From contig NZ_CP034463.1 in assembly GCF_003955715.1 (NCBI RefSeq), positions 4,030,001 to 4,094,000 on the forward strand: 64,000 nt of DNA. The letters are read 5' to 3'. Source of the DNA: Streptomyces aquilus (GTDB lineage Bacteria; Actinomycetota; Actinomycetes; Streptomycetales; Streptomycetaceae). Positions 1 to 13,808 of this stretch are shown piece after piece. A program made the position numbers and the translations under genes. Below the pieces are notes generated by a model. That model did no database searches. It was given only the letters and a program-made list of their open reading frames with translations, and was not told where the DNA came from. Each line of letters opens with the position of its first letter. Within the stretch, counting starts at the first letter, position 1.

Positions 1-154
1 CGCCGAGCAGGACCGGGGCATCTTCGGCAAGGAAAGCAGCCGGATTGTCCTTGACCTGCATGTACGCCTTATGCAGCCAGCCGAAGCGGGGGGCGAAGGT
101 CTCATGGCGCGCGAAGCTGGAATGTGCGGCTTCCGCGAGCCTGCTGTCTGCCAT
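1..154 (-). CDS. DUF4007 (SspB-like) protein, partial
   Basis: The first 51 codons of a minus-strand gene that runs off the left edge. The start ATG at 154 has GAGAGG seven bases upstream. The visible residues include ARHETFAPRFGWLHKAY and LAEDAPVLLG, which match the N-terminal signature I know for DUF4007. As I recall, DUF4007 proteins are the SspB component of single-strand DNA phosphorothioation (SspABCD) and also occur beside PAPS-reductase-like proteins. The gene lies 45 bp downstream of the cysteine desulfurase on the same strand, so the two probably share a transcript; sspC- and sspD-like genes would be expected beyond the edge. Family assignment is fairly firm, the system assignment is inference. 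Confidence 0.8.
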   Translation of the reverse strand, partial: MADSRLAEAAHSSFARHETFAPRFGWLHKAYMQVKDNPAAFLAEDAPVLLG

Positions 155-199
155 ACGAGGGCCTCTCAATACAAGAAGAGATAAAGGGAACTGCTGGAG

Positions 200-1384
200 T
201 CAGTGAGCAAGCGCGCCGGCTGTCGCTGCCATGGCGGCGCGCACCTGGTGGACCGCACGCACCACCGCCTCGGCGGCTGCGGCGGTCTCGTCTGCGGTGG
301 TGGCGTAGCCGAGGGAGAAGCGCACAGTGCAATCTGCTTCCTCCCGGCTCAACCCCATGGCGAGCAGGACGTGGCTGGGAGTTGGGGCTCCCGAGGCGCA
401 GGCGCTTCCGTCGGATGCCGCTATGTGCGGCATGGCGGCCATGACTGCGTCGGCGGGGGCACCCGCGAAGGTGATGCTCGCCACACCGGGCAGGCGGGGG
501 GCTTGTTGCCCGTTGATGCGGCATCCGCCCACAGCCGTGGTCACCATGTGCTCGAGCTGATCACGCAGTTGGGTCACGCGGGCGACGTCATCGGCAAGGT
601 CACGGCTGACGGCTGCAGCGGCAGCTCCGGCGCCGGCGATTCCGGGCACGTTGAGGGTGCCGGCCCTCCACCCCTTCTCCTGTCCGCCACCGGTGATCAG
701 TGGCCTGAACGGCAGTGGTGTGCCGCGGCGTACGAATAGTGCGCCAACGCCTTGAGGGCCGCCGAACTTGTGGGCCGACAGGGACAGAAGGTCGACGTCC
801 ACTTCGGAGAGGTCCAGGGGCAGCCGGCCGATCATCTGTGTGGCGTCCGTGTGGACCAGTGCGCCTGCGGCATGCGCCGCCTTGACGACCGGCGTGAGGT
901 CGGTGAGAACTCCGGTTTCATTGTTGGCCGCCATCAGGGAGACGAGACCGACGTCGCCCCGGCCGAGCTCTTGCTCCAGGGCCACGGTTTCCACCAGGCC
1001 GTCCGCCCGCATCGGCAAAACGGTCAGCGATCCCGGCTCGTTTTGGGCCAGATCCCGGGCTGTCTCCAGCACCGCGGGGTGCTCTGCACCACTCGTCACG
1101 ATCCGGGCCTCGCGGCGGTGAGCCGCGCGCAGCGCGAGATTGTTCGCTTCGGTTGCCCCCGACGTGAAGATGATCTCCCCGGGCGAGCAGTTCAGCAGGT
1201 CGGCAAGGTGCCGACGAGCGGTTTCCACGCGATGGGCTGCGCCCCGGCCGGGGTGATGCACACTCGACGCGTTACCAACGGCCTGCAGGGCGTCCACAAC
1301 GGCAGCCAACGCTTCGGGCCGAATTGGCGCCGTCGCGTTGTAGTCGAGATATGCCGAAACCGGCCCATCAGACTCATCCCTCAT
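200..1384 (-). CDS. Cysteine desulfurase (SspA/DndA/IscS-like)
   Basis: A 394-residue PLP enzyme that takes sulfur from cysteine and carries it as a persulfide. Visible landmarks: SGATEANN near residues 75-82, His in EHP at 102, the PLP lysine in SAHKFGG at 206, and the sulfur-accepting cysteine in SACASGAPT at about 329. The open frame extends further upstream, but ATG at 1384 with GAGGTGG just before it is the best start. It leads into the DUF4007 gene and is divergent from a helicase/ATPase/nuclease operon. In this setting it probably supplies sulfur for DNA backbone phosphorothioation (the SspA or DndA role) rather than general Fe-S assembly. A housekeeping IscS role cannot be excluded from sequence alone. 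Confidence 0.9.
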   Translation of the reverse strand: MRDESDGPVSAYLDYNATAPIRPEALAAVVDALQAVGNASSVHHPGRGAAHRVETARRHLADLLNCSPGEIIFTSGATEANNLALRAAHRREARIVTSGAEHPAVLETARDLAQNEPGSLTVLPMRADGLVETVALEQELGRGDVGLVSLMAANNETGVLTDLTPVVKAAHAAGALVHTDATQMIGRLPLDLSEVDVDLLSLSAHKFGGPQGVGALFVRRGTPLPFRPLITGGGQEKGWRAGTLNVPGIAGAGAAAAAVSRDLADDVARVTQLRDQLEHMVTTAVGGCRINGQQAPRLPGVASITFAGAPADAVMAAMPHIAASDGSACASGAPTPSHVLLAMGLSREEADCTVRFSLGYATTADETAAAAEAVVRAVHQVRAAMAATAGALAH

Positions 1385-1845
1385 GCCCCACCTCGTCTCG
1401 CTCAGCACCGCAGACAATCTACTCCTGGTGGAACCCGGACGTGCGCACCGGGGGCACCACCAGGAGTGAGTCGCGATGGTAGCGATCGAGATCGATCAGT
1501 CCGCGAAACCGACACTCAGCTCGGAGCGCAAACTGTAACTCGAACTAATGTTCCCTATTGCTTGAGTGCCTGCAACCGATATCGGGAAAGGGCATCTGTG
1601 CAGAGGCGGCACGGGATCCTCGATAGAGCCTGCCGCACCTCGTCAGCGCCTCTGAGCTGCGAATATCAATCGCTGAGACCCGAGTGTCAGTGCTTGGGTT
1701 TATGGTGATCAGGCACTGTAACCCTGGGGCGACTCAGAGTTGCGGGCAGCTCTGCATGCACAGAACTGAGGCGGGGGATCCGCAAGTTGACGGTCATTCA
1801 GACATCGAGGGGAAATCTCCCCTGTTCCGCAGGGGTGGTGAATCG
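1385..1845. promoter_or_regulatory. Divergent intergenic region of the defence locus
   Basis: 461 bp with no convincing gene. It must hold the promoters for the leftward cysteine desulfurase operon and the rightward helicase operon. It contains a long hairpin at 1421-1467 (listed separately), a shorter inverted repeat CGATC-GA-GATCG at 1483-1494, and a stretch around 1540-1565 with lower GC than its surroundings. A TTGACG at about 1792 could be a -35 element for the rightward operon. No promoter is certain. Confidence 0.5.
1421..1467. promoter_or_regulatory. Long inverted repeat between divergent defence operons
   Basis: ACTCCTGGTGG at 1421-1431 is the exact reverse complement of CCACCAGGAGT at 1457-1467. 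Inside it CCCGG (1434-1438) faces CCGGG (1448-1452), leaving a 9-nt loop. It lies 37 bp upstream of the cysteine desulfurase start, so it would be either in that gene's 5' leader or an operator. It is too far from any gene end to be an ordinary terminator. Confidence 0.75.
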
Positions 1846-3474
1846 ATGACAGCGTGGTCGCCCGGCCTGTCCTTCCAAGCCGTGCTGGACAGCGCTCCCA
1901 TGCCGTACATCCGCGAGCAGCTCGGCAAGCACATGTGCGCTCTGCTCGACCTCATCGACGGCGGAAGCGCCGGCGATGAGCGGCTCCGAGCAGTCGCCGC
2001 CGTGGCGGTGGACGCCGAGAAGCTCGTCTCCGATCAGACGGACCGCGAGGAGCTGCTGCGGCTCCTGCCCGCCGACAAGCAGACAGAGCTTGCCCAACGT
2101 CTTGGAGCGGACGGCGCGGGCACCGATGCCCTTCTCTACCTGAACGGTCTGAAGTGGGCGAGTGAGCAACAGCGGGAGTTGCTGGAGTTCTTCGGCTTCA
2201 GCGTCGACAGGGCACCTGCGCTGCCCCCGCTCTTTCGGCAAGACGCCGAACCCGAGTACGGGCTGTTCCCCCACCAACGGCGCGCAGCCGCACGCGTGAA
2301 GGAGTTGCTGTACGACGGACCGCGGCGGGTTGTCCTTCACCTGCCGACAGGCGTGGGCAAGACCCGCACCGGAATGAACCTGATCGCCGACCATCTGCGG
2401 CAGCACGAGCCCACCCTCGTGGTCTGGCTGGCGCGTGGGCAGGAACTGCTGGAACAGGCGGCTGCGGAGTTCGAGCGCGCGTGGTCCAAGCTCGGCGACC
2501 GTCCGATCACGGTCGTCCGGATGTGGGGCGAGGCGCCCACCGATGTGCAGGCGCTGACAGACGGCCTTGTCATCCTGGGGCTGGAGAAGGCCGTCTCCGC
2601 GGACAAGAGCGATCCGGAGCTTCTCCGCAAACTCGCATCGCGCAGCACCCTCACAGTCTTCGACGAGGCTCATCAGATCATCGCGCCGACCTACCAACGA
2701 GTGGTGGACGCCCTCACCATCCGCCCCGATGCCAGCTTGCTGGGCCTGACGGCCACCCCCGGCCGTACCTGGGCGGACGTCACTCAAGATGAGCGACTGT
2801 CGGACTTCTTCGCCCGCCAGAAGGTCATGCTGCAGATCGACGGATACAGCAACCCGGTAACCGCCCTCATCGAACAGGGCTACCTGGCCAAGCCCATCAT
2901 GAAGACCGTCGCCTCCGAAGCCGGTCTCCATCTGTCCGCGCGCGATCAGCAACTGCTCGCGAAGTCCTTCGACATCCCGTCGGACATCATCGCGTCGCTG
3001 GCCAGCGACGAGCAGTGGAACCTCAAGGTCGTCCAGACCGTGCTGGAGCTACTAGAACGCCAGCACCGCAGGATCCTGGTATTCGCGGCCTCCGTTGACC
3101 ACTGCCGCCTGATCGCCGCCGTCCTGTCGGCGCTCGGCCTCGATGCCGACTTCGTCACCGGCGAGTCCTCTCCCCGGCACCGGAACGATGCCATCAGACG
3201 CTTCAAGGGCGCCGGCCGACGCCCCATGATTCTTTGCAACTTCGGGGTTTTGACCACAGGCTTCGATGCCCCGGCGGCCAGTGCTGCCATCATCGCCCGA
3301 CCGACCAAGTCGCTGGTCCTGTACAGCCAGATGGTCGGCCGGGTCATCCGCGGCCCCAAGGCCGGCGGAACCGCCACCTGCGAGATCGTCACCGTCGTCG
3401 ACCCGGAGCTGCCCGGGTTCGGAGACGTGGCCGAGGCATTCACCAACTGGGAAGACGTATGGGAGACCGCGTGA
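1846..3474 (+). CDS. SF2 DEAH-type helicase of PT-linked defence operon
   Basis: A 542-residue superfamily 2 helicase. An N-terminal region of about 135 residues has no motif I recognise. Then come Walker A PTGVGKT (167-173), the DEAH box (273-276), motif III TATPGRT (302-308), and a second RecA-like half ending in TTGFDAP and QMVGRVIRG. ATG at 1846 is preceded by GGTGGTGA; the open frame runs back to 1684, but those extra codons do not look like a helicase. The stop overlaps the next start (GTGA), so this gene, the GHKL ATPase and the HKD nuclease are translationally coupled. Helicase, MORC-like ATPase and HKD nuclease is a known prokaryotic conflict-system association. It probably acts on invading DNA; that is inference. 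Confidence 0.88.
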   Translation: MTAWSPGLSFQAVLDSAPMPYIREQLGKHMCALLDLIDGGSAGDERLRAVAAVAVDAEKLVSDQTDREELLRLLPADKQTELAQRLGADGAGTDALLYLNGLKWASEQQRELLEFFGFSVDRAPALPPLFRQDAEPEYGLFPHQRRAAARVKELLYDGPRRVVLHLPTGVGKTRTGMNLIADHLRQHEPTLVVWLARGQELLEQAAAEFERAWSKLGDRPITVVRMWGEAPTDVQALTDGLVILGLEKAVSADKSDPELLRKLASRSTLTVFDEAHQIIAPTYQRVVDALTIRPDASLLGLTATPGRTWADVTQDERLSDFFARQKVMLQIDGYSNPVTALIEQGYLAKPIMKTVASEAGLHLSARDQQLLAKSFDIPSDIIASLASDEQWNLKVVQTVLELLERQHRRILVFAASVDHCRLIAAVLSALGLDADFVTGESSPRHRNDAIRRFKGAGRRPMILCNFGVLTTGFDAPAASAAIIARPTKSLVLYSQMVGRVIRGPKAGGTATCEIVTVVDPELPGFGDVAEAFTNWEDVWETA

Positions 3475-5351
3475 CCGGCGAGGGAAGCAAATACCGGATC
3501 GTCAGCCCTTCGCTGACCGTCAAGGCCATGCGCGACAGCGGCTACAAGAACACCGCCTACGCGCTCGCCGAGCTGATCGACAACAGCATCGACGCGGAAG
3601 CCACACTGGTTCAGGTCTTCGCCTGTGAGAGCCCGGTGCAGGGCGCCACCCAGACGAGGCACCGGGTGGACACCATAGCTGTCCTTGACAACGGCAAGGG
3701 TATGGACGCCGAACGCCTGCGGCGCGCCCTGAAGTACGGCGACGGCCTCGGGGGCGACCGCAACCGCATCGGGCGATTCGGCATGGGGCTGCCCAACTCC
3801 AGCATGTCCCAGTGCACCAAGGTTGAGGTCTGGTCCTGGACCAACGGGTCCCCGAACGCCATGTACACCTACCTCGATCTTGAGGAGATCAACGGCGGAC
3901 TCGACGACGTCCCCCCTCCCGTACACCGCCCCGTGCCGGAGTACTGGAGCGACCTCAGCGAGGCACCGCTGGGCACCACCGGCACCCTCGTGGTCTGGTC
4001 GGACCTTGACCGGGTCAAATGGCACGGCGCCGGCGCCACCCTGCGCAACACTGCCGAGCTGATCGGCCGGGTGTACCGGCACTACCTCCACGACGGCAGG
4101 GTGGAGATCAAGATGGCGCCGGTCCGCGAAGGAAAGGTCCTCGAAGGAGACAACGGGGCGTACTTCGCCGAGCCCAACGACCCCCTGTACCTCATGGACT
4201 CAACGGGGACGCCGCCCCCGTTCGGGAACAAGCCCATGTTCGAGCCCTTCGACATGGGCAACGAGAAGGAACCCGGGGTCGCCTACTTCCCGATCACGGT
4301 CGACGGGACGAAGCACAACGTGAAGGTGCGGGCATCCATCGCCCGGCCCGAGGCCCGCCGCGCCGACGTCGAAGGTCACCCGTGGCCCGACAACGCGAAC
4401 CCCAACCGCGACGCCGGTTTCCACCCGTGGGGTCAGCATGCTCGACGGAACATCGGGATTTCCCTGGTCCGGCAGGGGCGCGAACTCGACCTCGATTCCA
4501 AGTGGGCCATCGGGTACGACCCCGTCGAGCGCTGGTGGGGCATCGAGGTGGAATTCCCCCCGGAGCTCGACGACATCTTCGGCGTCACGAACAACAAGCA
4601 GACCGCCACGGTCTTCTCGTCTCTCGCCCACTTCGACTGGACGGCCGAGGCCGAGGGGGACGAGACTCCCAAGGCGTTCAAGGACCGCATCGCCGAATTC
4701 GGCGACCCGCGCCTGCCCCTGATCGATCTCGCGCTCTACCTGGAGAAGAACCTCCTGCCCGCAATGCGGCGGAAACTGAAGCAGCGCAGGCTGGGCCGGG
4801 GGGGCAAGAAGCGCCACGACGACGTCGTCACGTCCAAGGCCACGGACGCGGTGAAGCGCCGGCAGGAGGACGGTCACACGGGAACGACCGACCGCCTGGC
4901 AGAGGAGGCCACCGAGAACGACAAGCGCCAGGAGCAGTTCGCGGCGCTCACCGAGCGGCATCACCTCGACGAGGACACCGCCCAGTCCATGGTCGACGAG
5001 GCACTGGAGAAAGACTGGCGTGTCCGCTGGATTTCCAGCCCGCAGGACTCCACGGCGTTCTTCAACATCGACCTCATGGCCGGCATGCTCCAGGTGATCT
5101 TCAACACCGAACACCCGCTGCACAGCGAGCTGATGACCGTCCTTGAAGACGTGCCCGAAGACGCGAGCGAGGCCGAACTCCGCCAACGTCTCGCCCGCGC
5201 CTCCGACACCTTCAAACTCCTCGTATTCTCCTGGGCCCGTATGGAGGACGAGATCCCCAACAAGCGGGACCGCGCCAGGATCTCGGACGCCCGGCGTGAC
5301 TGGGGCCGCTACGCCCGCGACTTCATCGAAGACGGGAGCGATGACGAGTGA
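3471..5351 (+). CDS. MORC/MutL-like GHKL ATPase
   Basis: A 626-residue protein with the GHKL ATP-binding fold. Seen: N-box ELIDNSID (34-41), DNGKGM (73-78), and GRFGMGLPNSS (101-111), followed by an S5-type region with GTLVVWSDLD. The C-terminal third is highly charged and may form a coiled coil. The GTG at 3471 overlaps the helicase stop by 4 bp and has GGGAGA five bases upstream; an in-frame ATG at 3459 is the alternative start. Bacterial MORC-like GHKL proteins next to SF2 helicases and HKD nucleases were described as parts of restriction-like systems (the Iyer/Aravind comparative analysis, from memory). It is probably an ATP-driven DNA clamp that loads or gates the neighbouring nuclease. 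Confidence 0.87.
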   Translation: MTGEGSKYRIVSPSLTVKAMRDSGYKNTAYALAELIDNSIDAEATLVQVFACESPVQGATQTRHRVDTIAVLDNGKGMDAERLRRALKYGDGLGGDRNRIGRFGMGLPNSSMSQCTKVEVWSWTNGSPNAMYTYLDLEEINGGLDDVPPPVHRPVPEYWSDLSEAPLGTTGTLVVWSDLDRVKWHGAGATLRNTAELIGRVYRHYLHDGRVEIKMAPVREGKVLEGDNGAYFAEPNDPLYLMDSTGTPPPFGNKPMFEPFDMGNEKEPGVAYFPITVDGTKHNVKVRASIARPEARRADVEGHPWPDNANPNRDAGFHPWGQHARRNIGISLVRQGRELDLDSKWAIGYDPVERWWGIEVEFPPELDDIFGVTNNKQTATVFSSLAHFDWTAEAEGDETPKAFKDRIAEFGDPRLPLIDLALYLEKNLLPAMRRKLKQRRLGRGGKKRHDDVVTSKATDAVKRRQEDGHTGTTDRLAEEATENDKRQEQFAALTERHHLDEDTAQSMVDEALEKDWRVRWISSPQDSTAFFNIDLMAGMLQVIFNTEHPLHSELMTVLEDVPEDASEAELRQRLARASDTFKLLVFSWARMEDEIPNKRDRARISDARRDWGRYARDFIEDGSDDE

Positions 5352-6244
5352 CGCAGCCGGACCACGTCTGGCAGCAGATAGCCGACCTGATGAAGGGCGC
5401 CACCACGCGAGTGATCCTCGTGGCGCCCTTCATCAAAAGGGCCGTCTTCGAGGAGACCCTCGCCTCGGTGCCGACCTCGGTGGAGACGATCGAATGCGTC
5501 ACGCGCTGGACTCCGGCGGAAGTAGCCGCTGGAGTCTCCGATCCCGAGATCATCGAGGCGGCGGAGCGGGACGAACGCGTACAGATCACTCTCTGCCCGT
5601 CGCTGCATGCCAAGATCTACGTCGCCGACGACCGATGCCTGGTCGGATCCGCGAACCTGACCGGCAAGGCCACCGGCCGAGTCCCCAACGCCAACGTGGA
5701 GCTCTTGCTGGATGTACCCCTCACGCATCCCGAAGTGCAGCGCGTACTCAGCTTGATCGAGTCCCGCTCGACAGCTGCCACACCCTTGGTGGCCGCCCTT
5801 GTCCGGAAGCAGGCAGAACTTCTGAAGGAGGAACGCATCCCGCCTCCGGCCGAGGGCGAACCCGCCCCCCTTTGGTACCCGGAAACGAGACGCCCGGAGA
5901 ACGTGTTCGCGCTCTACAACGGGCGAACACGATTCACCTCCCCGGTCGAGGCCGGCATCATCCAGGACCTTGCCATGCTCGATGTCCCGGCAGGTTTGGC
6001 GGAGCACGACTTCAACACGGCGGTCGAGGCTCGGCTGCACGCCATCCCAGAACTCCACAAGCTGCTCGTCGGCGAGCGCCTCAGCAACATCGAGCTCCAG
6101 GAGGCCATCGTGGAACGGACAGGAGACCCGGAAGACCAGGCGCGGAGGACGACGGAGACCCTCGCGGCCTGGCTGCAGCACTTCGGCCGCTATTACACCG
6201 AGGTGGGCTCGTGGGAGCTGCGGCCAGGACGGGAGCACACCTAA
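5348..6244 (+). CDS. HKD (phospholipase D-family) nuclease
   Basis: A 298-residue protein with one HKD motif: His87, Lys89 and Asp94 in LHAKIYVADD, followed by GSANLTGKA (100-108). With a single motif the enzyme would be expected to form its active site as a dimer, as in Nuc and BfiI. Residues 10-30 (KGATTRVILVAPFIK) form the usual opening strand of PLD-like nucleases. The C-terminal half has no motif I know. GTG at 5348 overlaps the ATPase stop by 4 bp. It is the likely effector that cleaves DNA in the helicase/ATPase/nuclease cassette. Confidence 0.87.
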   Translation: MTQPDHVWQQIADLMKGATTRVILVAPFIKRAVFEETLASVPTSVETIECVTRWTPAEVAAGVSDPEIIEAAERDERVQITLCPSLHAKIYVADDRCLVGSANLTGKATGRVPNANVELLLDVPLTHPEVQRVLSLIESRSTAATPLVAALVRKQAELLKEERIPPPAEGEPAPLWYPETRRPENVFALYNGRTRFTSPVEAGIIQDLAMLDVPAGLAEHDFNTAVEARLHAIPELHKLLVGERLSNIELQEAIVERTGDPEDQARRTTETLAAWLQHFGRYYTEVGSWELRPGREHT

Positions 6245-6330
6245 GATCTGCGTGCACGGCGTAGAGCGGCGGAGCAACTCCCCCGCTCATCGCCACCCCA
6301 CGGAGACGAAGGTGATGGGAAGGCCCCCTC

Positions 6331-6978
6331 ATGGCACAGGTGCGGGTCCCGTTCCTGCTGGGCCATGCCGAAATCGCCTCCCTCTATCAAGTGGAGCGCC
6401 AGACATCGCAGAAATGGCGGACGGAGGGCGCCCTCGCCGCACCTGACCTGGTCGCGTCCGGCAACCCGTACTGGCTGCTGGCGACGGTAATGCGGCTCAA
6501 CGGCGCCGGCGACCGCCACGTGGCGCAAGACCAGCTGACCTCCTACAAGACCGGCATCCCCCGCGGCTACGAGGTCCAGGACAAGCAGGACTTGCCCGTC
6601 ATCCTCGGCATCCAGGAGGTCGCCCGCATCCTCGCGAGGGACGCGCAGGCGATCTCCCGATGGCGTAACCGGCGACAGATCGCCGAAGCCGACCTGACCC
6701 TCTCCGGCTCCCCTCTCTGGCTCCTGGAGACCATCCTGGACGATGCGCAACAGCGGCAGCGCACCATCCTCCCGGCCGAGGTCGAGCTGCTACGCACAGG
6801 TCACCGCGCCCCGCAGAAACCACGTGGCCGCAGACAAAGAGCGCCCCTCACCCAGCCGCCACACAAGGCCCCGCCCGCAGCGCGAACGTTCACCGGTGCC
6901 GACCAGGCGGCAGCGGTCGAGTTCCTGGCAGCAGTCCTGGCAGAGGGACACTCTGTGGTCATCGAGCCGCGACCTTAG
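6331..6978 (+). CDS. Protein with two tandem MerR/excisionase-like HTH repeats
   Basis: 215 residues with an internal duplication: residues 10-50 (LGHAEIASLYQ, SQKWR, SGNPYWLL) and 91-132 (LGIQEVARI, ISRWR, SGSPLWLL) are the same small helix-turn-helix module, of the kind found in MerR-type regulators and phage excisionases. A basic, Pro-rich linker follows (150-180) and a short C-terminal segment. ATG at 6331 has GGGAAGG nearby. It lies 86 bp after the nuclease, co-directional, so it may be the last gene of the defence operon or a separate regulator. One protein carrying two modules could span both halves of an inverted repeat such as the one at 7050-7100. The exact role is unknown. Confidence 0.65.
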   Translation: MAQVRVPFLLGHAEIASLYQVERQTSQKWRTEGALAAPDLVASGNPYWLLATVMRLNGAGDRHVAQDQLTSYKTGIPRGYEVQDKQDLPVILGIQEVARILARDAQAISRWRNRRQIAEADLTLSGSPLWLLETILDDAQQRQRTILPAEVELLRTGHRAPQKPRGRRQRAPLTQPPHKAPPAARTFTGADQAAAVEFLAAVLAEGHSVVIEPRP

Positions 6979-7049
6979 CCGGCCTTCCCGTCCTGACTGG
7001 GACGGAACCCAGGACGCGATATCGCCTCTAGGCAGTGTTCGCCGACAGC

Positions 7050-7100
7050 TGTGAGAGAAACACTTGATACCCCGCCCGCCAATCCATACTGTCTCTCACA
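7050..7100 (+). promoter_or_regulatory. Promoter flanked by perfect 9-bp inverted repeat
   Basis: TGTGAGAGA (7050-7058) and TCTCTCACA (7092-7100) are exact reverse complements with a 33-bp spacer. Between them lie TTGATA (7064-7069) and CATACT (7085-7090), with a 15-bp spacer; TACTGT three bases later is an alternative -10. Transcription would start close to the ATG at 7100, suggesting a leaderless mRNA. The repeat encloses the whole promoter, as expected for an operator. Confidence 0.55.
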
Positions 7101-8005
7101 TGCCGATCTTGTCACGCACCCCCGGAGCCCACCACGACAACCCGACGGAAACGGGCCCACGGGCCGTTCTCGACCTCGCCGCTCACCAGTCAAGTGAATG
7201 CCCGCTGAGGGTCATCTCCTACGGAGGCGGAGTCCAGTCGACCGCGCTGCTGGTGCTGGCCGCCCAGCGCGAGATCGACTTCCCCACCTTCCTCTTCGCC
7301 AATGTCGGGGACGACAGCGAGCACCCGGCGACCCTCACGTACGTTCGCGAGATCGCCATCCCTTATGCCGAGCGTGCGGGCCTGGACATCCACGAGCTCA
7401 AGCGACGCCGCCGTGACGGGGCCACGGAAACTCTCATGCAGCGGCTGAACCGGCCAGATACCCGGTCGATCCCCATCCCGGTCCGTATGGCCAACGGCGC
7501 CCCTGGCCGCCGCAACTGCACCGCAGACTTCAAGATCAAGGTGGTCGGGCGGTGGCTTCGAGAGCATGGCGCCACCGCGAAGGCACCGGCGGCGGTCGGC
7601 ATCGGCATTTCGCTCGACGAAATCCATCGCGCCAACCGTCGGCGGAGGGAAGCCCACGAGGTCATCGAGTACCCCCTCCTCGACCTCGGGCTGCGCCGAG
7701 ACGACTGCGAGCGCATCATCACCGAGGCCGGCCTGCCAGTACCGCCCAAGAGCTCCTGCTTCTTCTGCCCCTTCCGAACCGTCGACGCCTGGCGTCACCA
7801 GCGCAGGCACGAGCCCGAGCTGTTCGCTCGGTCGGTCCGGCTCGAGGAGACGATCAACCGCCGACGGGCCGCGCTCGGCCGGGATGACGTTTATCTCACG
7901 AGGTACGGCGTCCCGCTCACACAGGCCATCCCCGATGAGCGCCCGGGGGAAGGCGACGTCGATGAGGATGAGGGAGCGTGCGACTCCGGCTGGTGCATGA
8001 CCTGA
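7100..8005 (+). CDS. PAPS reductase-family (PP-loop) protein
   Basis: A 301-residue protein of the adenylyl-activating PP-loop ATPase superfamily, the family of PAPS reductase and of DndC/SspD. Seen: the PP-loop SYGGGVQST (40-48), RRNCTADFKIK around Cys140, and a CFFCPF pair at Cys220/Cys223 that could bind metal or sulfur. The C-terminal tail is acidic and ends in CDSGWCMT. ATG at 7100 is chosen over an upstream TTG (7064) because the TTG lies in a putative -35 box; there is no Shine-Dalgarno, consistent with leaderless translation. Its position in a phosphorothioation locus suggests a sulfur-transfer role, but this family is also found alone in Streptomyces. It may not be SspD itself, which would be expected left of the window. 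Confidence 0.8.
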   Translation: MPILSRTPGAHHDNPTETGPRAVLDLAAHQSSECPLRVISYGGGVQSTALLVLAAQREIDFPTFLFANVGDDSEHPATLTYVREIAIPYAERAGLDIHELKRRRRDGATETLMQRLNRPDTRSIPIPVRMANGAPGRRNCTADFKIKVVGRWLREHGATAKAPAAVGIGISLDEIHRANRRRREAHEVIEYPLLDLGLRRDDCERIITEAGLPVPPKSSCFFCPFRTVDAWRHQRRHEPELFARSVRLEETINRRRAALGRDDVYLTRYGVPLTQAIPDERPGEGDVDEDEGACDSGWCMT

Positions 8006-8023
8006 TACGTACCGAGCAAGCCA

Positions 8024-8067
8024 CGATGGGTGGGGCCCGAAGCCATGGCGTCGGGCCCCACCCATCG
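8024..8067. terminator. 17-bp perfect hairpin, bidirectional terminator
   Basis: Positions 8024-8040 (from CGATGGGTGG) pair exactly with 8051-8067 around a 10-nt loop, followed by TTT on the plus strand. It lies between the convergent PAPS-reductase-like gene and the minus-strand gene ending at 8120. Confidence 0.85.
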
Positions 8068-8119
8068 TTTGCCCCTGGGATGCCGACGTGGCCGCCACAC
8101 GGCACTGCAGATGCCGGAA

Positions 8120-8971
8120 TCAGAGCTCAGGCGGCTCGCCGGGCTGGAGGTGGAGGACGGCGAGGTATTCGCCGTAGGGCATTTCTTCGTCCACCCATCG
8201 GCTGCCGCCTGCGGAGTCGGGAATCCACATGCCGTCGAGAAGGTACTTGTCGTCGAAGACGGCGACACGGTCTTCTTTCACCGCTGCCGCCATCAGCAGC
8301 TGCATCCCCAACAGCAGCACCGTGGAGGCTTCCTTGACCGTGCAGACCTCGGCGTGCCCCGTGGGGAAGACCTTCCCGTCCGCGTCACTGCCCGGCTCGG
8401 GGATGGGCGCATGGCCCCGGACCGCCATCTCGTGCAGGGCAATCGCCCGAGTCACCGCTGCCGCCACCGACGTGCCAGCGCCCGGCACGCCGTCCGGGGC
8501 ATGCGTCCGCAGATGATTGGCGACCGCATGCGAGTGCACAGGCCACGTATCAGGGTGTTGTTGCAGCCGCTGCTCAGCGGCCTCGACGGCGAGGCCAGGC
8601 TCCGTGGTGTCCGGGTGCAGCAGCCGGACGAATCCTTCGAGTGCTGCGCGCAGGTAGCCGAGACGGACCTGGTGCTGCTGCCACTCCTCCATCATCTCGG
8701 TCCAGACGGCGTCGAAGTCGAGGCCCGCTGAGCACATGCCGCCGTCGTCGTAGGACATGTCGAACGTCACCGTGCGCAGGCCCTGGGCGAGACGCAGCCA
8801 CTTGTAGGCCGTGTCCCAGCCGTTCTGCGCCCCGGGGACTCCTGTGACGGCGGAGGCATGCTCCACCCAGTCGGTGAGTTCACGGACATGGTCCTCGGGC
8901 TCGGACAGCGCGAGGGTGGACAGCGTTCGGTATGAGGGCAGGCAGGAGCCCTCCAGCCGGGTGGTGGTCAT
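8120..8971 (-). CDS. Uncharacterised protein beside PT methyltransferase
   Basis: 283 residues, not recognised. The protein is rich in acidic residues, Trp and Met, with no signal peptide and no obvious membrane segment. Visible stretches include YKWLRLAQGLRTVTFDMSYD near residues 60-80, a helical middle part with VTRAIALHEMAVRG, and a Trp-rich acidic tail. The ATG at 8971 starts MTTTRLEG and lacks a clear Shine-Dalgarno; the frame stays open much further upstream over the neighbouring gene, but that part reads as an out-of-frame shadow. It lies 59 bp downstream of the methyltransferase on the same strand, so they are probably co-transcribed. A role in the same defence locus is guesswork. Confidence 0.6.
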   Translation of the reverse strand: MTTTRLEGSCLPSYRTLSTLALSEPEDHVRELTDWVEHASAVTGVPGAQNGWDTAYKWLRLAQGLRTVTFDMSYDDGGMCSAGLDFDAVWTEMMEEWQQHQVRLGYLRAALEGFVRLLHPDTTEPGLAVEAAEQRLQQHPDTWPVHSHAVANHLRTHAPDGVPGAGTSVAAAVTRAIALHEMAVRGHAPIPEPGSDADGKVFPTGHAEVCTVKEASTVLLLGMQLLMAAAVKEDRVAVFDDKYLLDGMWIPDSAGGSRWVDEEMPYGEYLAVLHLQPGEPPEL

Positions 8972-9030
8972 GGGTGGAGCGTGGCACACGGCACTGACAA
9001 TCACTGCGGTGCCGAGAGCCGGAGCGAGGC

Positions 9031-10473
9031 TCAGGTGCTGGTGGTGCGCCGTACGAGCCTGTGGCCTCGCAACTCCCGCTCGCAGCGGACGAGTTCGCGC
9101 TCCCATCCCTCTTCCGTGCCGATCAGGTGCGGGCTCTCGTAAAGACCGGCGCGAACTTCGGCGTCGGTGAGCCGCCGGTACTTGGGTGCGTCGGGATCGT
9201 CCTCGGCAAGGAACTCGTGCTTGCGGTGCAGCAGGGGACGGTTGGTGGAGTCCGCGTACGAGGTGAAGGAGGACTTGAGGGTCTTCAGGTCGACGGCGTA
9301 CGAGGCCGCGATTCGCGGGTGGGGATCCGTGTCGAACTCGGGGTAGTCGAGCCAGCTGACGCCGCGGCCCTGGTGGCGGAGCTTGACGACGGACCACTCG
9401 CCAGGACGGCCGGCGGCAATGCTCGCGCACTGCTCGTACAGGCGCAGCACGGCCGGGATCCGGTGGAGTGCGCGGCGGTGCACGTACAGGGCGGTCGCGG
9501 TGAACTTGCCGGCGATCGATCCGTTCATCGCCCGGCGGACGTAGGCGTCGTCGCGCAGTTTGAACAGCAGCCGATCCGCTCGGTGGCACGCCTCGGTGTA
9601 CGACGGGAAGAAGGCACGGATGTCCAGTTGAACCGGCAGGGGCAGACTGCTGACCGGGCCTCGGCCGTGAAACAGCTCCAGCGCGAGGAACTGCAGTGTG
9701 TCGAGGGCCCCGCGCTCGGCGCTTCGTTCTACTTTCGCGGGGTCGGCCTCCTGTTCGGCAAGGCGCTTGAGTTCAGCGGGGCGCAGGTGGCCAAGGAGGC
9801 TGATGATGGGCTGTGGCATTTCCTCCAGCTGAGGCATCCTGCCGCGCTGTTCGAAATGAGCGACGACTGAGCTGATCGCCGAGGCGGTGTCCTCGGACGC
9901 CAGCCACCCCCCGTCAGGAGCCACCTGGCGGGCGAGATAACTCAGGCGGGCCGCATCGTCCTTGAACGCGTAAATGATGCCAGGCGCCGCCGACACGCAG
10001 CGGACGCCGGTGGCCTCCTCGACGTAGTCGCGCAGCTCGCCAGCGGCGTAGAGGCGCTGGAAGGTGCGGCGCTGCGTGAGAATGCCGTCGCCGTACTCCG
10101 CGCCTTTGATCTGGTTGCGCTCCCACCTCAACCGCGCGGACACGACCAGCACCGATTTGGCGAGGTCCCAGGCTCGTAGGAGCGTCTCGCGTCGTTCGGC
10201 GGGATTCTCAATGACGTTCAGGACGTAGGTGAGAAGGACCACTTCGGCCGGCTCACGCCGCCCGTCCGGGAAGTGGACCGGGTCCCACCCTGCGGCATCG
10301 AGGCCGAGGTGCTGCAGTGCCCTAACATCGCCGCCACGTCCACACCCGTAGTCCAGTACTCCCGTGTCGGGTTCCAGCTGGAGGTCACCGACGGCGCGAC
10401 GAGCCGGCAGCGAGAGGCCGACTCGGCCGATCGCGGTCTGATGCCTCTGGCTGCTCCAAAGCTGCTGTGTCAT
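9031..10473 (-). CDS. DNA phosphorothioation-associated putative methyltransferase
   Basis: 480 residues. The N-terminal half is a class I methyltransferase with the SAM-binding motif DYGCGRGGD (41-49). The C-terminal half (SLPLPVQLDIRAFFPSYTEA, then VVKLRHQGRGVSWLDYP) matches what I remember of TIGR04096, a family defined by co-occurrence with dnd genes. ATG at 10473 has GGGGA just upstream and gives the usual 'TxIGRxxLSLPARRA' opening; the frame is open back to 10533. Its substrate is unknown. It is an independent sign that this region is a phosphorothioation locus. Confidence 0.85.
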   Translation of the reverse strand: MTQQLWSSQRHQTAIGRVGLSLPARRAVGDLQLEPDTGVLDYGCGRGGDVRALQHLGLDAAGWDPVHFPDGRREPAEVVLLTYVLNVIENPAERRETLLRAWDLAKSVLVVSARLRWERNQIKGAEYGDGILTQRRTFQRLYAAGELRDYVEEATGVRCVSAAPGIIYAFKDDAARLSYLARQVAPDGGWLASEDTASAISSVVAHFEQRGRMPQLEEMPQPIISLLGHLRPAELKRLAEQEADPAKVERSAERGALDTLQFLALELFHGRGPVSSLPLPVQLDIRAFFPSYTEACHRADRLLFKLRDDAYVRRAMNGSIAGKFTATALYVHRRALHRIPAVLRLYEQCASIAAGRPGEWSVVKLRHQGRGVSWLDYPEFDTDPHPRIAASYAVDLKTLKSSFTSYADSTNRPLLHRKHEFLAEDDPDAPKYRRLTDAEVRAGLYESPHLIGTEEGWERELVRCERELRGHRLVRRTTST

Positions 10474-13100: not shown

Positions 13101-13808
13101 ATGGCTGCAAAAAGGAGACGCCGCAGTAAGGCCACACGACACCGCGAAGCCAAGCAGCGCATCAGTTTCGCGACGGCCGTCGTGGCAGCGGTCCTGTTCG
13201 TGCTGTGGCAGTCCCCCTGGCTCCTGATCAGCATCCTGTGCGCCACCGCGCTCGCCGGCCTGGGATGGATGCTGTGGAAGGCACACCTGCGGGAGCAGAC
13301 GGGGGACCGCGCCTGGCGCGAGCAGAACCGGCGCATGGAACTCGAACGCTCCATGGCCACCATCGACGCCATGAGCTGGCAGGACTTCGAGCACTACGTC
13401 GCCGAACTGTGCCGCCGCGACGGCTGCACCAACGTCACCGTCACCGGAGGATCGGGCGATCTCGGAGCAGACGTCGTTGGCACACTTCCCGATGGCCGGC
13501 ACCTGGTGGCCCAGGTCAAGCACTACGCACCCCACCGGTACATCCCCAGCGGGGACATGCAGAAGTTCGTCGGCACCGCGAAACTCGAGCACAAAGCGGA
13601 TGTGGCGCTGTTCGTCGCCACCTGCCCGTTCGGGAAAGCCGCCCGAGACCTCGCTGTGCGGCACGACATCATCGCCATCAGCCGCGACCTGTTCGGCGCC
13701 TGGAACAGCGGCGCACCCCTGGAATCCCTGCTCCCACTTAACGGGGCCGGCGACGGGCCGCGCCGGAAGCCGAACACCAGCCGCGAGCCGGAGGCGGGCA
13801 CCGCATAG
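13101..13808 (+). CDS. Membrane-anchored Mrr-like restriction endonuclease
   Basis: 235 residues. A very basic N-terminus (MAAKRRRRSK) leads into two membrane segments (about 23-36 and 40-54), then a soluble Mrr-cat domain: MSWQDFEHYVAELCRRDG (from 91), TGGSGDLGADVVG and HLVAQVKHY. The D...QxK pattern is the PD-(D/E)XK active site of the type IV restriction/Mrr family. ATG 13101 has GAGGGGG upstream. Members with N-terminal membrane helices are common in actinobacteria and not well understood. Its closeness to the phosphorothioation genes fits a defence-rich region, but no operon link is visible. Confidence 0.85.
   Translation: MAAKRRRRSKATRHREAKQRISFATAVVAAVLFVLWQSPWLLISILCATALAGLGWMLWKAHLREQTGDRAWREQNRRMELERSMATIDAMSWQDFEHYVAELCRRDGCTNVTVTGGSGDLGADVVGTLPDGRHLVAQVKHYAPHRYIPSGDMQKFVGTAKLEHKADVALFVATCPFGKAARDLAVRHDIIAISRDLFGAWNSGAPLESLLPLNGAGDGPRRKPNTSREPEAGTA

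Follow-up and report, generated by a model that had tools for sequence, protein, structure and literature searches.

Introduction

Which restriction functions accompany DNA phosphorothioation at the many loci that carry sspBCD genes and neither of the partners SspE and SspFGH? In a 2021 survey, 2,211 of 2,678 sspBCD loci fell into this group (printed as 83.9%, the ratio being 82.6%), and its authors considered that such loci might either have restriction partners yet to be recognised or be orphan modification loci (PMC8092258). Here we address this question for a locus of Streptomyces aquilus at the left edge of a 64,000-nucleotide stretch, hereafter the window (positions 4,030,001 to 4,094,000 of NZ_CP034463.1, assembly GCF_003955715.1; G000:C1:4030001-4094000 in our labelling of genomes, G, contigs, C, and loci, L), which belongs to a 10.39-Mb, one-contig genome. 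Genes of the modification module SspABCD run leftward at this locus, and a divergent operon encodes a superfamily 2 (SF2) helicase (HEL), a MORC-like GHKL ATPase (GHKL1) and an HKD-superfamily nuclease (PLD). We suggest that the locus is probably a phosphorothioate-based restriction-modification system of two modules, SspABCD and HEL-GHKL1-PLD.

Results

A predicted SspABCD module at the left edge of the window

A preliminary description of this DNA had read a leftward cysteine desulfurase and a DUF4007 protein as SspA and SspB of a DNA-phosphorothioation (Ssp) locus, and had named extension to the left as a test. The edge of the window cuts the sspABCD operon, with most of sspB and all of sspC and sspD lying just outside, and the left flank was fetched (L002, in which position p corresponds to window position p-15000). 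Indeed, sspC (L002 10446-14045, minus strand; 1199 amino acids; PADLOC SspC, E=0) and sspD (L002 9616-10449, minus strand; 277 amino acids; PADLOC SspD, 4e-121) were found immediately left of the window, and sspD, sspC, sspB and sspA share one direction. The first part of sspB occupies window positions 1..154 (minus strand) and the gene continues left to L002 14042; roughly the first 50 SspB residues lie inside the window, with a likely ATG at 154, judged by eye. The protein matched DUF4007 (1e-88), PADLOC SspB (6e-122) and solved SspB (6juf/6lb9, 6e-173), structure 6LB9 being that of Streptomyces clavuligerus SspB (PMC9240713). The cysteine desulfurase gene sspA was called at 200..1417 (minus strand), although its true start may lie further in; its product scored 420 bits with PADLOC SspA and also 386 bits with PADLOC DndA. 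The initial SspA and SspB assignments thus held by PADLOC, Pfam and solved SspB, with small changes of coordinates. Since sspA, sspB, sspC and sspD are all present with PADLOC matches, the phosphorothioation module is complete, as expected of an Ssp locus, and its modification function is indicated by homology.

No SspE was detected among the ten locus proteins with PADLOC, and the genome-wide search gave just one partial match of 48 bits, with a model that scored in eight of 14 control genomes as well. We therefore rejected an SspE encoded elsewhere in the genome. As a positive control, the SspE models picked up the SspE relative of a Hymenobacter plasmid (L133, see below).

The divergent operon encodes a helicase, a MORC-like ATPase and an HKD nuclease

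An intergenic gap (1418..1845, read from the sequence) separates the two divergent operons. The first gene of the rightward operon (1846..3474, plus strand) encodes HEL, an SF2 helicase resembling RadD and PbeA (ResIII 6e-21; Helicase_C 1e-13) that carries Walker A (TGVGKT), DEAH and motif VI. HEL matched the NCBIfam RadD model with 1e-30, far under the family cut-off; its best PADLOC model was PbeA (2e-21), and in the PDB it matched RadD (6jde, 1e-21) and SauUSI (7clg, 3e-10).

The second gene, GHKL1 (3471..5351, plus strand), starts with a GTG within a GTGA overlap, and an in-frame ATG lies at 3459. It encodes a MORC-like protein with GHKL and S5 ATPase regions (HATPase_c_3 8e-20; PADLOC MzaB 2e-14) that carries GHKL ATPase motifs, for which three patterns were tested. 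By profile comparison, the best solved relatives were human MORC2 (2.5e-6). A structure predicted with moderate confidence (predicted local distance difference test [pLDDT] 72) gave MutL, MORC4, SMCHD1 and MORC2 as Foldseek relatives. Compared by eye with the S5 motif GhXhhpXXRhl, the GISLVRQGREL of GHKL1 fits at seven of eight constrained positions, with an E at a hydrophobic position. A MORC-family GHKL ATPase, as judged from its profile and fold relatives, adjoins an SF2 helicase, the arrangement by which a MORC-type restriction neighbourhood is recognised.

The third gene (5348..6244, plus strand) encodes PLD, an HKD-superfamily nuclease with a single catalytic motif (PLDc). Its predicted structure (pLDDT 91.6) had SauUSI, R.NgoAVII, NucT and BfiI as top Foldseek relatives. 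Template modelling (TM) scores over the whole query were low, 0.26-0.40 among the 50 matches listed, since it is the N-terminal nuclease domain that aligns. Residues H87, K89, S101, N103 and E118 are invariant across 50 aligned homologues. With GTGA stop/start overlaps at 3471 (HEL/GHKL1) and 5348 (GHKL1/PLD), the operon appears to be translationally coupled; both these overlaps and the domain matches agree with the coupled helicase, MORC-like and HKD genes of the preliminary description.

HEL, GHKL1 and PLD have no dedicated family in PADLOC-DB 2.0 (2023) or NCBIfam (June 2026); pipelines built on these resources therefore probably score such loci as bare sspABCD.

The trio is linked to ssp genes in several collections

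In the genus, full-length GHKL1 was found in 12 of 295 genomes (49-100% identity) and DUF4007 in 19 of them, at 21 places. All 12 genomes with full-length GHKL1 carry DUF4007 a few kilobases away, on the same contig and the opposite strand (Fisher 7e-17). Fourteen of the 21 DUF4007 places are sspABCD loci (the S. aquilus locus and 13 others tested by tblastn), and HEL-GHKL1-PLD occupies the divergent slot in 12 of these 14. At the remaining seven places (L047-L053), no SspC or SspD match was found within the stretches examined; their DUF4007 proteins share 37-42% identity with S. aquilus SspB. A sample of the actinomycete phylum yielded full-length GHKL1 in three of 296 genomes, each time beside ssp genes. 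One genome that had seemed to carry GHKL1 without DUF4007 (G408) was dismissed as an exception, as its contig begins inside sspC. GHKL1 also has a homologue (51% identity) in S. clavuligerus, the source of the solved SspB 6LB9.

We then consider public genome contigs, which were scanned with a 30-sequence GHKL1 alignment. The scan gave 310 relatives, the best 80 of which defined 79 loci; these represent the closest relatives (at least 40% identity), so that more distant MORC families lie outside the scan, and part of them come from genomes also in the genus sample. Profiles detected an ssp gene in 75 of the 79 loci and sspB or sspC in 74, L122 having sspD at the contig start. HEL was found in 77 loci, PLD in 72, and sspBCD together with the complete trio in 63. 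Walker A, DEAH and motif VI were all present in 80 of 89 called HEL open reading frames (ORFs), and the HEL proteins of the nearest distinct Streptomyces relatives (L058-L068) are 76-83% identical to that of S. aquilus. Judged by record titles, the 79 loci span about ten phyla and include Actinomycetota, Pseudomonadota, Cyanobacteria, Latescibacterota, Bacteroidota, Armatimonadota and Bacillota as well as Acidobacteria-, Planctomycete-, Gemmatimonadota- and Chloroflexota-type lineages. The preliminary description would have been contradicted by homologues of the right-hand operon regularly occurring without phosphorothioation genes; homologues of the trio regularly occur with them.

Plasmids gave a similar picture. 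Twelve of 72,556 records hold a match that covers 80% or more of GHKL1, at 35-46% identity; two of the 12 are Trichormus variabilis records with identical scores. Eleven are among the SspC matches listed, at distances of 2.4-13.1 kb, and the twelfth, a 43-kb Hymenobacter plasmid record (L133, NZ_CP141190.1), encodes DUF4007, SspC, a PAPS (3'-phosphoadenosine-5'-phosphosulfate)-type protein, helicase, GHKL and phospholipase D one after another and, behind them, a relative of SspE. A single record here combines sspBCD with the trio and with an SspE-like gene. As a control, 41 plasmid records whose MORC matches are shorter were compared with the SspC matches listed, which comprise 60 of 65 records. 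The two sets had CP049030 alone in common, a count that could rise with the full set; CP049030 has a divergent helicase-GHKL-PLD set near sspABCD. A search of 50,697 phage records yielded no full-length GHKL1.

The relative orientation of the two gene sets varies. They are divergent in 34 loci, convergent in 10, and read in the same direction with ssp upstream in 29 and downstream in one. Defence genes cluster, mobile-element genes flank the S. aquilus locus, and a second GHKL gene and a Dcm-type methylase lie nearby (see below), all of which one would expect if two unrelated defence systems had become neighbours by chance in a defence island. We consider this highly improbable and already largely refuted, given the linkage in different collections (12 of 12, 12 of 12 and 75 of 79), the partial-match control and the retention of the pair in four arrangements across many phyla. 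On the basis of gene neighbourhoods, we therefore regard the trio as a conserved Ssp partner; the converse fails, as most ssp plasmids lack the trio.

Modification and restriction modules appear exchangeable

In 34 actinomycete loci (the S. aquilus locus and 33 others), pairwise protein distances, uncorrected for shared ancestry, correlated at 0.90-0.97 within SspB/SspC/SspD and at 0.89-0.93 within HEL/GHKL1/PLD, compared to 0.62-0.77 between the two sets. In L062, HEL and GHKL1 are 82% and 76% identical to the S. aquilus proteins, whereas SspC is 54% identical. These values are consistent with HEL, GHKL1 and PLD evolving together as a putative restriction module, with an occasional exchange of this set relative to the modification module.

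Two of the 14 sspABCD loci of the genus lack the trio. In one (L045; G025:C1:4202300-4222200), PbeA (1.6e-178) and PbeC (1.6e-53) lie at 4869-9598, in the divergent slot beside sspA, which appears to be a swap of the restriction module, with PbeA-PbeC taking the place of the trio. The other (L038) has a DndB-family ORF nearby. Among the public loci, a DndB-family gene precedes HEL in L118 and an HNH_4 ORF precedes it in L126, where it could be a nuclease exchange.

The swap bears on whether the trio might instead aid modification or repair, for example by opening or processing DNA at nicks introduced by SspB. A RadD-like helicase and a MutL-like GHKL fold do resemble repair proteins, and SspB is a nickase (PMC7188994). 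However, Vibrio SspABCD was reported to modify DNA in Escherichia coli without such genes (PMC7188994; PMC8092258), the majority of ssp-bearing plasmids lack the trio, and both the HKD nuclease and the PbeA swap point to restriction. A role in modification or repair is thus unlikely, and we take the trio to be a probable restriction module on account of its linkage to ssp, its catalytic motifs, the PbeA-PbeC slot swap and the restriction-nuclease relatives of PLD.

A proposed mechanism and the direction of the mark

Gene content, catalytic motifs that appear intact, and the conserved linkage of the trio as a unit with ssp can be read from the sequences. Beyond this, we infer that HEL, GHKL1 and PLD form a complex, that it restricts DNA of phages or of other foreign origin, and that phosphorothioate is protective. 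SspABCD, which makes single-strand phosphorothioates with SspB acting as the nickase (PMC7188994), would put sulfur onto the DNA backbone, presumably as single-strand 5'-CpsCA marks. HEL would translocate on DNA or open it, GHKL1 would dimerise with ATP and thereby clamp or trap DNA, and PLD, probably as a dimer, would cut. Most likely, by analogy to SspFGH, which is restrained by the phosphorothioate mark (PMC8092258), unmarked DNA would be cut and phosphorothioate-marked self DNA spared.

The same two modules could also work in the opposite sense, with phosphorothioate on self DNA licensing HEL-GHKL1-PLD to cut unmarked DNA. Such activation is the published behaviour of SspE, the first Ssp effector (PMC13251355), and the tight linkage between trio and ssp is equally expected from it. 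However, no GTPase or DUF262-type sensor was found in the trio with Pfam, NCBIfam or PADLOC, and among the published Ssp partners it is the multi-gene SspFGH that is mark-protected (PMC8092258). We therefore regard activation by the mark as possible but doubtful.

Several observations weigh against a mark-guided restriction module made up of these three proteins. No known phosphorothioate-binding domain was matched in HEL, GHKL1 or PLD with Pfam, NCBIfam, PADLOC or PDB profiles; a candidate reader of the mark is therefore not recognised by sequence. PLD homologues vary at the D of the classical HxKx4D motif. Seven Nostoc-type loci (L116, L118, L119, L124, L126, L128, L129) lack a PLD homologue, and in five of them (L116, L119, L124, L126, L128) the called HEL ORF has no Walker A. 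Four public loci are without an ssp gene (L088, L110, L114, L127); although a contig end lies within 2.3 kb of GHKL1 on at least one side in each, no ssp gene occurs over 10 kb on the opposite side in L088, L114 and L127. Finally, about 54 of 66 SspC-bearing plasmid records and five of seven DUF4007 genomes of the phylum sample have no full-length GHKL1, and ssp therefore does not need the trio.

Accessory genes downstream of the trio

Beyond PLD, the preliminary description had noted a double helix-turn-helix (HTH) gene, a PAPS-reductase-like gene and a TIGR04096-type methyltransferase gene, and had proposed that these, and a further gene at 8120, might be new parts of the system. All are present. 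The HTH gene (6331..6978, plus strand) encodes two helix-turn-helix-like stretches with weak matches (BldC 4e-5, residues 9-36; HTH_17 2e-5, residues 92-118). It is followed by PAPS2 (7064..8005, plus strand), coding for an SspD-like protein of the PAPS-reductase family (PADLOC SspD 4e-14; no Pfam or NCBIfam match at 0.01). A conserved gene, ORF8120 (8120..8971, minus strand), without a Pfam or NCBIfam match, adjoins the gene for a TIGR04096 DNA-phosphorothioation-associated putative methyltransferase (9031..10473, minus strand), which scored 516 bits against a cut-off of 150.

We counted these genes up to 10 kb to each side in the 34 actinomycete loci, telling SspD and PAPS2 apart by motif. 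The HTH gene was found in 22 loci, PAPS2 in 24, ORF8120 in 17 and the methyltransferase gene (TIGR04096) in 15. Of the remaining 45 loci, L117 alone had the methyltransferase gene, which also lies beside the trio in G408. An identity of 90-97% to Streptomyces relatives had raised the suspicion that the methyltransferase gene is a core chromosomal flank gene. We rejected this explanation, as the gene was found above cut-off in two of 61 and then in 16 of 291 genomes of the genus, six with and ten without the trio. Three of these ten (G044, G097, G284) were examined, and all have DndA, DndC and DndD; with all three examined copies from genomes lacking DUF4007 lying in Dnd loci, a methyltransferase belonging to this trio in particular was rejected as the sole reading. 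The TIGR04096 methyltransferase thus appears to be a phosphorothioation accessory common to Ssp and Dnd loci.

PAPS2 was found at an identity of at least 59% in six of 61 genomes, in three of them without DUF4007 (59-63% identity there); it is therefore not specific to Ssp, and a role as an Ssp-specific second sulfurtransferase is unsupported. In the S. aquilus genome, two equal-scoring PAPS-reductase-like matches in opposite orientation (G000:C1:16425-17129 and 10376859-10377563) were detected, as expected of terminal inverted repeats. Of the extra genes proposed as new parts of the system, the TIGR04096 gene is an accessory that Dnd loci have as well, the HTH gene and ORF8120 occur at some of the actinomycete loci, and PAPS2 is not specific to it.

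Flanking genes

On the left flank, a second GHKL gene, GHKL2 (L002 7485-9407, minus strand; HATPase_c 2e-6; no PADLOC family), lies left of sspD, beyond a perfect inverted repeat (18 bp or longer, seen by eye). Its membership in the system is doubtful, and no relative was found among the other loci profiled. Other GHKL genes, of the MzaB-like kind, lie downstream of sspD in L034, L036 and L040. Two Dnd loci (L142, G097:C387:113000-132900; L143, G284:C1:7530000-7549900), with DndA, DndC and DndD above cut-off and TIGR04096 on one side, carry on the opposite side genes for a 579-residue MzaB/MORC-like GHKL ATPase and a 723-residue protein of no known family. Here, a different MORC-like ATPase appears to stand beside another phosphorothioation system.

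Further left (L002 1233-7365, 7.6-13.8 kb left of the window), genes for a coupling protein resembling TraG/VirD4, a cytosine methylase of the Dcm type and a protein with a DnaB N-terminal domain are mobile-element genes; Dcm and DnaB-like relatives also occur near the ssp loci L038 and L041. On the right, a protein with a Mrr_cat restriction-endonuclease domain (13101-13808; 3e-21) is encoded near an ORF that reads, by eye, like aspartyl-tRNA synthetase, and as far as seen it is outside the system. No tRNA that could serve as an integration site was found within the 52 kb scanned.

Discussion

The conserved linkage of HEL-GHKL1-PLD to ssp genes leads us to suggest, as the rather likely reading, that Ssp systems of many phyla have in the trio a restriction partner of a third class, distinct from SspE and SspFGH, and that GHKL1 is the first ATPase of the MORC family to be connected with a mark on the DNA backbone. 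In such a modular machine, DNA would be fed to a separate HKD nuclease by an SF2 motor together with a MORC clamp, and phosphorothioate would determine which DNA is cut. The trio would thereby supply a concrete partner candidate for part of the sspBCD loci without SspE or SspFGH that might otherwise count as orphan. Moreover, the MORC family of ATPases, represented in eukaryotes by chromatin proteins, would gain a link to a backbone mark of bacterial DNA, and phosphorothioation systems would appear as exchangeable modification and restriction modules. In the open-access literature, with few subscription papers covered, no account of the trio in the role of an Ssp partner came to light, although one may exist elsewhere. 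The available text of comparative-genomic papers from 2024 and 2026 on Dnd and BREX contains neither 'MORC' nor 'GHKL'.

By family, the trio appears to be neither SspE nor SspFGH. The modification module SspABCD is shared with the SspABCD-SspE system, the effector of which is SspE (DUF262/HNH) rather than a three-protein helicase-MORC-HKD set. With SspABCD-SspFGH, the locus shares a multi-gene, ATP-binding partner beside sspBCD. SspFGH is described as having a Walker A motif in the first gene, an FtsK/SpoIIIE-like C-terminus in the third and otherwise no homology to annotated genes (PMC8092258), domains that do not match the helicase, GHKL and HKD proteins found here. On this domain content, as given in the published description alone, we rejected the earlier suggestion that the trio might be SspF, SspG and SspH.

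The PbeABCD/CxC-ABC system also combines an SF2 helicase, an HKD nuclease and a DNA-handling ATPase beside phosphorothioation genes. There, as described in PMC10853773, an HKD-SF2 helicase fusion is accompanied by a CxC ABC ATPase and a DndE relative, whereas the S. aquilus locus has separate genes and a MORC-like GHKL ATPase; in addition, PbeB, PbeC and PbeD had no PADLOC match among the ten locus proteins. Type 4 BREX has SspC, SspD and DUF4007 homologues (PMC12839542), and its PglZ and BrxL were not found among 20 locus and flank proteins, the second ten of which were searched with Pfam and NCBIfam only.

The PLD nuclease fold is shared with SauUSI and R.NgoAVII, and in SauUSI it is likewise coupled to an SF2 helicase. 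SauUSI is, however, one polypeptide (a 953-residue chain), whereas HEL and PLD are separate proteins. To our knowledge, no MORC subunit or ssp partner belongs to SauUSI.

A precedent for the gene arrangement is given by the MORC/SF2-helicase neighbourhoods described by Iyer, Abhiman and Aravind in 2008 (PMC2292703), in which a prokaryotic MORC gene neighbours those of an SF2 helicase and of a nuclease, in a few cases of the HKD type, as here. Nitrococcus mobilis, listed for Figure 2 of that article, corresponds by species name alone to one of our loci (L098). The neighbourhoods of 2008 were linked to DNA methylases, and 'phosphorothio' is absent from the available text. Thus, while MORC and SF2 helicase neighbourhoods, sometimes with an HKD nuclease, have been known since then, what is new here is the trio as a conserved partner of Ssp.

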